A DNA stretch of 33,209 bases, from the NCBI GenBank assembly GCA_017992765.1, contig JAGOOA010000027.1, positions 1-33,209 of the forward strand. Direction: 5' to 3'. Of the stretch, positions 5,026 through 30,307 are shown piece by piece; within the stretch, counting starts at the first letter, position 1, and every line of letters starts with the position of its first letter. Made by a program: the position numbers and the translations under genes. The DNA is from Syntrophorhabdaceae bacterium (lineage in GTDB: Bacteria > Desulfobacterota > Syntrophorhabdia > Syntrophorhabdales > Syntrophorhabdaceae). The notes beneath the pieces were generated by a model. That model saw nothing but the letters and a program-made list of their open reading frames with translations, was not told the origin of the DNA and did no database searches.

Positions 5026-5913
5026 TCAGGATATTGATGAATGCAGCGGCATGACGAGCTTGAACGTGCTGCCCTGGCCGGGAGCGGACTCGACGGTAAT
5101 ATCCCCTTCGTTTGCCTTCATGAGTTTTTTGCAAAGCGAGAGGCCGAGGCCTGTGCCCTCGCCTTTTTGCTTGGTGGTAAAAAAAGGGTCGAATATCTTT
5201 CCCATGTTTTCCTGTTCGATCCCGCCCCCGCTATCGCTTACAGAGATGTAAACATTCCCATCTTCGACCCCGGACCGGATGCGTATCGTGCCTCCCTGCG
5301 GCATTGATTGCGCTGCATTTATGATAATATTCACCAGCGCCTGCTGTACGTGGATCTTGTCGACCACAACCGGCGGAACATTCTCTCCCTTTTCTACAGA
5401 AACCTCTATGTTCTTAAACCTTGTCAGGTGGTGCTCCATAAAAAGGACCGTATCGTCGATGATCCCGTCAGCCTCGACGCGCTCCTTTCTGGGCACGTCC
5501 ATCCTCGAATACTCCAGAAGTTTCATCAAAACCGTTGACAGCCTTTCTGCCTCTTTTTCGATAAGCCTTGCGTATCTTTCGACCCTTTCTCTATCCTCGG
5601 TCTTTAGTATCCTCCCGGCAAACCCCTGTATAGAGACCAGGGGGTTTTTGATCTCGTGGGCGATGGAGCCGGCGAGCTCGCCGAGGGCAGACAGCTTGTT
5701 TGCCCTCACAAGCTCTTCTTCGAAGGCCTTTATCCTGTCGTCGCGCAGCTTCAGGTCCTGCAGTTTCGCCTTCAGCACCTCGTAGATGTCGCTCAGCTCC
5801 CTGATATTGGCCTCAAGAAGCTTGCTGCGCGCGAGCGATAAGCTTTTCGCCTCTTCGAGGGCTACCTCGAGCTCACGCTTCTGCTGCTCCAGCATTTTTA
5901 TCTTCGATGCCAT
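5026..5913 (-). CDS. Soluble histidine kinase with N-terminal coiled coil
   Basis: This is a sensor-kinase core without membrane segments. Residues 1-75 (from ATG 5913) are charged and heptad-like, so probably a coiled coil. The H box follows (S-I-A-H-E-I-K-N-P-L, phospho-His about residue 86). The ATPase domain has the N box N-I-I-I-N-A-A-Q-S-M, G1 D-S-G-G-G-I, F box F-D-P-F-F-T-T-K and G2 G-T-G-L-G-L-S-L. All catalytic boxes are intact. There is no PAS, GAF or periplasmic sensor. The ATG sits 2 nt after the stop of the V4R gene, so the two are probably translationally coupled and V4R may supply the signal. No response regulator is adjacent; the partner is unknown. Confidence 0.92.
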   Translation of the reverse strand: MASKIKMLEQQKRELEVALEEAKSLSLARSKLLEANIRELSDIYEVLKAKLQDLKLRDDRIKAFEEELVRANKLSALGELAGSIAHEIKNPLVSIQGFAGRILKTEDRERVERYARLIEKEAERLSTVLMKLLEYSRMDVPRKERVEADGIIDDTVLFMEHHLTRFKNIEVSVEKGENVPPVVVDKIHVQQALVNIIINAAQSMPQGGTIRIRSGVEDGNVYISVSDSGGGIEQENMGKIFDPFFTTKQKGEGTGLGLSLCKKLMKANEGDITVESAPGQGSTFKLVMPLHSSIS

Positions 5914-27821: not shown

Positions 27822-29984
27822 TTACCTCCCGCCCTTTTGTTCTGCCCTGGGCGCCGCCTCCCTGATCGTCATCCCCCTGGGCGCTGCAGATATCTGCATG
27901 CCCTCCTTCCTCGGCGATTGAGCCTGAGGTGTCGCTGAGGTGGACTTTACATTTGGCTGCGCCTGAGGCGCAGCTGATGGAGTCTTTGCGGATGGCTGCA
28001 TTGGATGCGCTGCCGAAGGAGGATCTATAGTTGGTTGCGCTTGACGCGTCACCGAAAGAGTCCTCGCAGGCGCCCGGGTTTGAGGCGTGACCGGCCTTGG
28101 CGATTGAGCAGCTGCCGAAGAAGGCCTCGCCGGAAGCGTTTGGGATGTTGCCGCTGGGGACCGCGTTCTTTGCCGTACGATCGATGAGGCTTGCGTTCTT
28201 TGCGTCAAGGCCGACGTTGTTGGCGCTTGCTGCGTCCTCAGCGAAGTCACCGGTGGAGGCTGCGTCCTCGTTTGCATATATGGCCTCGCCTGCTGGACAA
28301 CAGGAGGAACTGAGGCAAAACGGGCGGGCACAGAAGGCTTCGGCTGTTTTGCCGCCCCGGGAGCACGCACTTGTCCTGTTGCGGCTTTTGTCTCCTGGCT
28401 GGCAACCGGGGCCGCTGGCGCCTTATTCACTGCGCCGATCCTTTGTGATTCTGTCCTTGCATAGTGCGTGGACGTTCGTTGTCCTGTCGTCGTGGACGGA
28501 ACCTCATTTCCATTAGGCGTTCCTCGCTGTAATGACGTTCTTGAAGATTGTGTCGGAGGCCGCGATATCCTTTGGACGGCCTGGCTCCCTGTTGCAGGAT
28601 CCTCCTTCCTCGTTCCTGCCGGGGTATTATATGTTCTCCGCGGCATGTCAGCCCTTCTTTCATCTGTTCGCTTCAACTGGTTTGATATTCCCGATTCCCG
28701 GCCGGCAATCCTTGCCGGCGGCTGCTTCGTTTTTGGTATATCTTTAATGACAGGCATATGCGTTGTTCTCTCCGGCCTGATCTCCGGAGCGCCCATGATC
28801 CTTTTTTCCTTCAGGAAAAGATTTTCCTTAGCTATCGTATTCATCGGCCTGCCGGTTATGAAGGTATCCCGGTGCAAAGTAGTGACGGCACGATCCACGT
28901 GTACGTTTTTATACGCCGTACGGTTGACCGTAATGTTCTGTACGGTCACATTCTTTATATTAACGCTGTAGGGACCGTAGTAGCCGCGGCCGTAGTAAAC
29001 CTCCCGCGGGGCAAGGGGCACCCATGAGATATGCGTCGGAGTATGGACCCATCCGACATATCCAGGACCCCAGTGCGCGAATCCTCTGCGCGGGGGCACC
29101 CAGCACCATCCGCACGTTTTAATAAATGCCCACCTGCCGTAATGATACGGCACCCATCCCCACGGCTCGTAGGAGATCCATACGTAATCGCCATGCATCC
29201 AGACCCACCGGCCGACCCTGTAAGGTGACCAGTCCTGTACGACGATAACTGTAGGCGTCCAGACATAGCCGTATTCCTGTTCGTATATCCACTTTCCGTT
29301 CTTGTTGAGGTCATAAGAATAGGGCTTGAGCTCATCGGGAAGATAGGCCGTTGTATTCCCAGGCTCAGGCCTTGAAAACTCACGGTCCCTTGCCGTGTTC
29401 CACTGTTCCCATTCGTCGGCCTGGAGAAGCTTCGCGAGGACCGGGTATTGGGCATCTTTCTTCAGGACCATCCTTTCCCCCGCGCCGATCCTCATCTGCC
29501 CTGTACCGCGGTCTGCGTACAGCTCGCCCTGCAAAACAGAAGCGGCTGAATCTTCATTCTCCGCCACGTCGATCCTGAAGACAGAGTTCGTGCGTGCGAT
29601 AAAAGATGCCGCCGGGGTCTCCAGGATCACAGCGTTCCCCTTTTCAACGACCACATTCCCGTATAAGCGCCCTTCACCCACGTAGAACCTTTCCTGTTTG
29701 TCCCCTGACGCGGGCATCTCCAAAAAGGTGTGCCTGTCAAGCCTGACGATCGTACCGTTTCTTAAAAAAAGCTCAGCCCTCCCGTTATCAGGGACCCATA
29801 TTTGATCGCTGTCTGATAAGGGCATATTGATCGATGCCGGCAGCCACTCGTTAGTATCTGCTGTTTTTACCTGCACATCCCCTTCAAGGTATCTCAGGTA
29901 AATGCTCCCAGGATCAGCTGTATAGCCCTGCAGAGGAAGTGCGATCGCGCATACCATACAAAACAAAGCCGCCAAATGTTTCAT
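27822..29984 (-). CDS. Secreted FecR-domain / DUF6600-type protein with Pro/Gln/Thr-rich tail
   Basis: This 720-residue envelope protein starts at ATG 29984, with AAAGGAGG 7 nt upstream; the open frame further upstream is the promoter region. Residues 1-22 are a signal peptide (L-P-L-Q-G-Y-T-A end). Next is a FecR-like beta domain (about 25-190: Y-L-E-G-D-V-Q-V, R-A-E-L-F-L-R-N-G-T-I-V-R-L-D). Then comes an aromatic repeat region (about 230-340: Y-V-W-T-P-T, D-W-S-P-Y-R-V-G-R-W-V-W, W-G-W-V-P-Y-H-Y-G-R-W) typical of DUF6600. The last 300 or so residues are low complexity, rich in Ala, Pro, Gln, Thr and Arg, with degenerate S-A-A-P-Q-A-Q-P repeats. It is probably surface or periplasmic; function unknown. 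A sigma-54 promoter precedes it. Confidence 0.88.
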   Translation of the reverse strand: MKHLAALFCMVCAIALPLQGYTADPGSIYLRYLEGDVQVKTADTNEWLPASINMPLSDSDQIWVPDNGRAELFLRNGTIVRLDRHTFLEMPASGDKQERFYVGEGRLYGNVVVEKGNAVILETPAASFIARTNSVFRIDVAENEDSAASVLQGELYADRGTGQMRIGAGERMVLKKDAQYPVLAKLLQADEWEQWNTARDREFSRPEPGNTTAYLPDELKPYSYDLNKNGKWIYEQEYGYVWTPTVIVVQDWSPYRVGRWVWMHGDYVWISYEPWGWVPYHYGRWAFIKTCGWCWVPPRRGFAHWGPGYVGWVHTPTHISWVPLAPREVYYGRGYYGPYSVNIKNVTVQNITVNRTAYKNVHVDRAVTTLHRDTFITGRPMNTIAKENLFLKEKRIMGAPEIRPERTTHMPVIKDIPKTKQPPARIAGRESGISNQLKRTDERRADMPRRTYNTPAGTRKEDPATGSQAVQRISRPPTQSSRTSLQRGTPNGNEVPSTTTGQRTSTHYARTESQRIGAVNKAPAAPVASQETKAATGQVRAPGAAKQPKPSVPARFASVPPVVQQARPYMQTRTQPPPVTSLRTQQAPTTSALTQRTQASSIVRQRTRSPAATSQTLPARPSSAAAQSPRPVTPQTRAPARTLSVTRQAQPTIDPPSAAHPMQPSAKTPSAAPQAQPNVKSTSATPQAQSPRKEGMQISAAPRGMTIREAAPRAEQKGGR

Positions 29985-30023
29985 TGTATCGCCTCCTTTA
30001 CACGTTCTGCATACCTTTGTAAA

Positions 30024-30040
30024 AGCAATATGCGTGCCAG
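30024..30040 (-). promoter_or_regulatory. Sigma-54 (-24/-12) promoter of the FecR/DUF6600-type gene
   Basis: On the minus strand CTGGCACG-CATA-TTGCT fits the sigma-54 consensus TGGCACG-N4-TTGCW exactly, with 10 nt between the GG and GC dinucleotides. Transcription would start near 30013, about 30 nt before the ATG. Such promoters need an enhancer-binding activator. Confidence 0.85.
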
Positions 30041-30103
30041 CGCCCTGTCTATCTAATATATTGATTATAATAGGTTTTATTACACGGCGACCGTTGCCGC
30101 AGT

Positions 30104-30145
30104 ACAAAATTGTCGAAACGGGGCTTTCCTCATCGACAATTTTGT
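30104..30145. promoter_or_regulatory. Perfect 13-bp inverted repeat, probable enhancer-binding site
   Basis: ACAAAATTGTCGA (30104-30116) and TCGACAATTTTGT (30133-30145) are perfect inverted copies 16 nt apart. They lie about 90-130 bp upstream of the predicted sigma-54 start site, where activator binding sites normally sit. Confidence 0.75.
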
Positions 30146-30210
30146 CTAATAGTGAAATAGAGATGGCGGACAGCAGACAAAAAATCAGGTTGAGGTTCCT
30201 GATTCTTCCT

Positions 30211-30307
30211 AAGGAGCTATGGACTATGAGCCGCCTCTCGCCCAACACCTTACGCCGAGGTTTTTTGCGGTTCCGATATACGATATACGAACTACGATAT
30301 ACGATTT
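30211..30307. repeat. Word repeats (GATATACGA type) downstream of an MFS gene
   Basis: CGATATACGATATACGA and TACGATATACGA recur at 30274-30307. GAGCTATGGACTATGAGCC lies at about 30215-30233, related to the CTATGAGC words after gatA. Confidence 0.6.

Follow-up and report, generated by a model that had tools for sequence, protein, structure and literature searches.

A predicted sigma-54 promoter with paired operators in front of a FecR/DUF6600 gene in Syntrophorhabdaceae and the predicted regulon of a ZraR-like two-component system

In a 33,209-nucleotide stretch of Syntrophorhabdaceae DNA, here called the window, a gene encoding a FecR/DUF6600 protein is preceded by a control region that is predicted to combine a sigma-54 promoter with paired dimer sites for a two-component regulator encoded on contig C64 of the same genome. 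This regulator would drive the operon in which it is encoded as well as the DUF6600 gene and a third locus beside engA, and we assign to this reading a probability of about 85%. The sequence-based facts behind it are shared operators, a fixed geometry, the content of the C64 operon and conservation in 38 of 60 genomes.

The DUF6600 gene occupies positions 27822..29984 on the minus strand and was characterized by Pfam domains, tail composition and a hydrophobic stretch. From N- to C-terminus, its product of 720 aa consists of the hydrophobic stretch, a FecR domain (PF04773, residues 60–154; 26.1 bits against a Pfam cut-off of 24), a DUF6600 domain (PF20245, residues 224–327; 101.5 bits against a cut-off of 27), which places it in the DUF6600 family, and a basic tail of about 290 aa rich in Pro, Gln, Thr and Arg. 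The initial annotation had described a surface protein. Of this description, the sequence supports an N-terminal hydrophobic stretch of the signal-peptide type. Structure prediction for residues 1–431 yielded no usable model (mean pLDDT of 28.7), and no papers naming DUF6600 were found in the open-licence PMC literature.

An exact -24/-12 promoter had been proposed for this gene, and TGGCACN5TTGC is indeed present without a mismatch (TGGCACGCATATTGC; positions 30025–30039, minus strand), 55 bp upstream of the start codon (ATG, 29984–29982); it is kept in the orthologues. With C30025, the last C of the -12 element, assigned to position -12, transcription is predicted to start 12 nt past this C, at about 30013 on the minus strand. 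The start had been placed about 30 nt before a strong ribosome binding site. It does lie about 29 nt upstream of the ATG, but the Shine-Dalgarno sequence (AAAGGAGG; about 29992..29999, minus strand) is only about 14 nt away. The -24/-12 element alone was dropped as evidence, since TGGCACN5TTGC with at most one mismatch was matched 99 times genome-wide (eight times exactly), which is below the 123 matches of the reversed control. The significance of the promoter derives from the recurrence of its combination with the operator pair, which is found at three places in the genome, the pair itself being matched 96 times in 60 genomes. In a relaxed form, the -24/-12 element is present at all 17 family orthologues of the DUF6600 gene. 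Two other good -24/-12 promoters of the window's genome (G000, C2:20684–20698 and C2:25623–25637) have different upstream sequences and lie near another sigma-54 activator on contig C2; they possibly form a second regulon.

Upstream of the promoter, a perfect 13-bp inverted repeat had been noted at 90–130 bp, and it was confirmed at about -91 to -132 relative to the predicted start. Its arms (30104–30116 and 30133–30145) are 100% complementary and are separated by 16 nt; with uniform bases, about 0.015 perfect 13-bp inverted repeats with a loop of at most 30 are expected by chance in the window. As regards its proposed role as the activator site, cross-genome comparison supports a putative enhancer, but one that would be made up of two operators and not of one site. 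Operator 1, the promoter-distal one (30133..30148, minus strand), is itself a dyad, TAGACAAAATTGTCGA, with the core GACA-N3-TTGTCG. Operator 2, the promoter-proximal one (30106..30116, minus strand), reads TCGACAATTTT and keeps only its core TCGACA (30111–30116) firmly, i.e., a half-dyad about 16–17 bp beyond the distal dyad. Since the proximal operator is firm only in TCGACA, the perfect 13-bp repeat is a trait of the DUF6600 copy and a few others rather than the rule. The repeat was rejected as a single site; in most copies, its halves form no such long inverted repeat. GACANNNTTGTCG and TCGACA are the sequences predicted to be contacted by the response regulator. The control region is adjoined by an intergenic repeat, CGATATACGATATACGAACTACGATATA, at 30274–30301 of the window, and a similar string is located near engA on contig C63 (L082, about 5800–5840).

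The first lead to further copies was the overrepresentation of one repeat arm, with two exact copies (both in the window) and ten copies with one mismatch, compared to two in the control; two of the ten proved to be parts of operator pairs. The pattern GACANNNTTGTCGN17TCGACA occurs perfectly at exactly three places in the window's genome. When up to three mismatches were allowed, 26 matches were obtained against 13 in the control, the remainder having three mismatches save for overlapping readings of the same sites. The genome search for further copies near sigma-54 promoters, as the initial annotation had proposed, thus revealed two more places, on contigs C64 and C63. The three pairs precede the DUF6600 gene, the CpxP/ZraP-kinase-regulator operon on C64 and a place on C63 that has no ORF and carries a C-loop hairpin. 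From TTGTCGA-N16-TCGACA to the exact TGGCACN5TTGC, the distance is 71 bp at the DUF6600 gene, 83 bp on C64 and 85 bp on C63. The view that this control is specific to the DUF6600 gene had to be given up, as the same elements stand at two other loci.

Conservation was analyzed in 60 genomes, comprising the window's own and others of its genus, family, order and phylum, with 16 from outside the order. The refined pattern TGTCGAN{14,18}CGACARNNNYGTC gave 96 matches in 38 of the 60 genomes and a single match in the reversed control; it was absent from all 16 genomes outside the order. After removal of one identical copy (a sequence common to G002 and G000), 95 distinct sites were left. Within the 100 bp scanned, TGGYAYN5TTGC was found at 76 of these sites (0.96% of random windows) and a promoter score of at least 0.92 at 84 (1.3% of random windows). 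The distance between operators and promoter was either 71–76 bp (27 sites) or 82–90 bp (49 sites) and never 77–81 bp; the two bands are roughly one helical turn apart. Within the family, each of the 17 FecR-DUF6600 genes that are of the window's type is preceded by operators and promoter; the reversed control of this upstream search gave 0 matches in 2.03 million strand-bases. This conservation across genomes supports the predicted arrangement of a sigma-54 promoter with an upstream activator site. The 60 genomes contain 27 DUF6600 genes, ten of them without a site (eight of a more distant type and two outside the order). Two of the distant genes, L047 (G023) and L048 (G028), have TGGCATN5TTGC some 283 nt upstream of the presumed start but no such operators and are perhaps under another activator.

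Alternatively, the inverted repeat might belong to the MFS transporter gene upstream, as its hairpin or terminator, or might bind a repressor, the -24/-12 element then being a chance match. The repeat does lie about 170 bp past the end of the MFS gene, and lone -24/-12 matches are not above chance. However, a terminator was rejected, since none was called at the repeat. Moreover, identically spaced copies of these operators precede other, non-homologous genes, nearly always before a -24/-12 element, the two halves occur in most copies without so long an inverted repeat, and the pair is kept 71–90 bp from the -24/-12 element across many genomes. We therefore consider this explanation highly improbable.

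The operon on C64 encodes, in this order, a CpxP/ZraP-like exported protein, a Gly-zipper lipoprotein-like protein, a second LTXXQ-like protein, a histidine kinase and a response regulator. The first protein is of the CpxP/Spy/ZraP type, with 49.4 bits for PF13801 (cut-off 29.2) and 34 bits for PF07813 (cut-off 24.3); the second LTXXQ-like protein reached 26.9 bits for PF07813 (cut-off 24.3). The kinase is a membrane protein whose two TM helices are separated by about 230 aa. The last gene (L083:1451–2812, minus strand) encodes a regulator of the NtrC type, with a receiver, an AAA+ sigma-54 domain and a Fis-type HTH (PF00072, PF00158 and PF02954, each over the cut-off). Its sequence contains GAFTGA and is AtoC/ZraR-type; in NCBIfam, it was called neither ZraR nor AtoC, as the curated cut-offs were not reached. 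A C-terminal motif like GxWxxxPGQWxxGxWVPSHKxWVPVNP is common to the Gly-zipper protein and small regulon proteins (L083:4794–5189 and the first gene at L173); this GxWxxxPGQW-like motif is Trp-rich and resembles parts of DUF6600.

The activator gene had been expected outside the window, and the candidate on C64 agrees with this; judged from sequence, this response regulator is very probably the missing activator. It is the only one of the 12 PF00158 matches in the genome, 11 of them strong, that adjoins any of the three operator pairs. Orthologues with at least 60% identity are present in 41 of the 60 genomes. By comparison of coordinates, the strict site lies just upstream of the activator operon and on the same strand in 22 of these 41, leaving 19 operons without it. 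For seven of the latter, a relaxed pattern was applied; it revealed a site at three (G006, G008 and G018) and was absent at four (G003, where the operon is cut by the contig end, G023, G028 and G043). Overall, the site was found in 35 of the 41 genomes with an orthologue compared to 3 of the 19 without (Fisher p of 3e-7, a value inflated by kinship). Promoter and enhancer might also be real and be served by another of the about 11 sigma-54 activators, or several activators might share the site. The other PF00158 proteins are available in the genome, and three genomes (G007, G015 and G039) have the operator site but lack a close orthologue of the C64 regulator. But the C64 activator alone lies behind the same enhancer in its own operon, this linkage exists in at least 22 genomes, and site and orthologue co-occur, so that we regard a different activator as unlikely.

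The initial annotation had named the lack of rpoN as evidence against sigma-54 control. In the draft genome G000, no match to PF04552, the sigma-54 DNA-binding domain, was found; yet 34 of the 36 genomes sampled have rpoN, as do five of the six other genomes of the genus. The second miss, G003, belongs to this genus too and is likewise a fragmented assembly, so that a gap is probable there as well. Since rpoN is so widely present, the draft reaches 95% completeness with 71 contigs, and the genome has 11 strong activators and conserved sigma-54 promoters, an assembly gap is the likelier explanation.

The third site is found at the same place in six genomes of the genus, divergent from xerD-like integrase-type and hslV-like proteasome-type genes (Pfam domains) and convergent with engA. 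In G004, the promoter drives a gene for a 112-aa exported helical protein, which is followed by the hairpin. In G006, this gene is decayed and the hairpin is kept, and in G000, G001, G002 and G005 the gene is lost and the hairpin starts 18 nt past the -12 element. Since promoter and hairpin outlive the loss or decay of the intervening gene, the comparison suggests that the third site encodes a regulatory RNA, and the locus may fairly be read as one for a dedicated RNA with a C-rich loop. The stem (AGGGGCAAGA/TCTTGCCCC) varies so little that it offers no covariation. In the loop, TTCATCC..ACCCYTCC is kept, and loop identity was 0.64 compared to 0.40 for the 3' flank in five genomes (G002, which hardly differs from G000, was left out). 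When a covariance model was derived from four of the six genomes, it found one strong copy in each of the six. The other 13 of the 19 genomes with a match lie outside the genus; their weak matches (E of 3e-4 to 9e-3) were not counted, since most are away from regulon sites, although two of them (G031 and G036) do fall on such sites. No Rfam family was found for the hairpin RNA. A small "QSQ" protein considered at this site was dropped, being an out-of-frame reading over the 112-aa gene of G004, which has a good SD.

The main rival to a regulatory RNA is a terminator left behind after gene loss, and we give it close to an even chance. The hairpin is located where a terminator would be expected, it follows the intact 112-aa gene in G004, and a T run stands behind it in the window's genome. 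On the other hand, enhancer, promoter and hairpin are kept together in the four gene-less genomes and in G006 with its decayed gene, ACCCYTCC is kept in the loop of the five genomes compared, and the T runs of G001, G005 and G006 are poor. In addition, a second genus of the family, g5, has at the corresponding site a different stem 109–251 nt downstream whose loop, TTACCCCTTCCT, is unchanged in 8 of 8 copies; the 20-nt core of this loop occurs once each in 9 of the 60 genomes, all of g5, and in eight of them at the regulon site. For a regulatory RNA with the C-rich loop, mRNAs with GGAGGGGU- or GGAAGGGU-type leaders may be candidate targets. Between hairpin and engA, G005 has a short ORF with a helix-turn-helix-like sequence (L128), possibly a mobile-element remnant. 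In another family of the order, at L137 (G043), the enhancer recurs with an exact promoter; behind them lies a long hairpin, AGGGGCACGGAG...CTCCGTGCCCTT, and no clear ORF.

In order to count classes of genes behind the sites, 10 of the 95 sites were dropped (promoter score below 0.88 or distance outside 66–92 bp). The 85 promoter-linked sites left precede 24 CpxP/ZraP-like first genes, 20 genes for small exported Gly/Tyr/Trp-rich proteins that form one cluster, 15 DUF6600 genes, 14 hairpin loci, two genes of one membrane protein and seven singletons; three have no ORF. The DUF6600 promoters of G018 and G034 are missing among the 15, since their operators are too degenerate for the strict pattern. 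No Pfam family was found for three regulon products tested. As read from their N-termini, most regulon products look exported or membrane-bound, on which the reading as an envelope-stress regulon is based. Since its control elements are common to the stress-sensor operon and a likely small RNA, the DUF6600 protein probably belongs to the envelope-stress response as well. In the proposed mechanism, an envelope disturbance would be sensed by the C64 kinase, and the phosphorylated regulator would bind both operators and loop to E-sigma-54. Transcription would then be switched on at the C64 operon, at the DUF6600 gene and at the RNA or gene beside engA, and DUF6600 would act in the envelope. Going further, we tentatively propose, at somewhat less than even odds, an order-wide envelope-stress regulon of one sigma-54 regulator. 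Its third arm would be a C-loop sRNA derived from the 3' end of a small-protein mRNA, which became stand-alone after gene loss separately in two genera, and the DUF6600 proteins would be co-made factors for envelope repair or reinforcement.

The C64 system resembles ZraPSR of Escherichia and Salmonella, which is linked to zinc and envelope stress, in having a sigma-54 regulator, a kinase and an exported CpxP/LTXXQ-like protein; ZraSR/ZraP is likewise described with autoregulated sigma-54 promoters (PMC4987338). In Salmonella, zraSR and zraP are divergent, whereas C64 has one operon that also includes the Gly-zipper and the second LTXXQ-like protein (PMC4987338). Against the curated models, the C64 proteins reached 425.6 of 760 bits for ZraR, 178.8 of 479 for ZraS and 19.5 of 200 for ZraP, i.e., they fall outside these families. 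By analogy, the C64 system would work like ZraPSR, and it is not filed as a member. Unlike ZraPSR, the predicted regulon takes in DUF6600, small envelope proteins and a hairpin RNA locus. In enterobacteria, QseE/QseF (GlrK/GlrR) is presented as a sigma-54 two-component system whose activator turns on the GlmY sRNA and an envelope-stress gene via upstream activating sequences (PMC6075780). The QseF sites given there, TGTN12ACA (PMC6075780), differ from GACA-N3-TTGTCG with TCGACA about 16–17 bp on. Against the GlrR model, the C64 regulator scored 344.9 bits (cut-off 763). To our knowledge, CpxR is not a sigma-54 activator. For CpxP/CpxQ, PMC9438474 describes an envelope-stress mRNA that encodes a small exported protein and whose 3' part holds a conserved RNA of about 60 nt. 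Unlike in CpxP/CpxQ, the coding part was lost here in several genomes, with promoter and hairpin remaining.

That two-component systems acting through sigma-54 control CpxP/ZraP-like proteins or an sRNA is thus already known, and so is the origin of an sRNA from the 3' end of an envelope-stress mRNA. For Desulfovibrio vulgaris, which was formerly also placed in Deltaproteobacteria, a sigma-54 regulome study reportedly reconstructed activator regulons by comparison. In the main text of the D. vulgaris regulome paper (PMC4641369), the words ZraR, heavy metal, Spy, small RNA and TGTCG are all absent. A search of open-licence PMC papers found nothing on a DUF6600/CpxP-ZraP-like/hairpin regulon. 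As far as these searches go, three things are new: the code of the operators, the membership of DUF6600 in the predicted regulon, and the series at one promoter that leads from a gene to an RNA.

A probable activator, an operator code and a target list can thus be named for relatives that are known here from drafts only. DUF6600, a domain without known role, gains a testable setting, namely its co-control with CpxP/ZraP-like exported proteins. The third locus, at which the gene is present, decayed or absent in relatives, could show how the 3' end of an mRNA turns into an independent small RNA.
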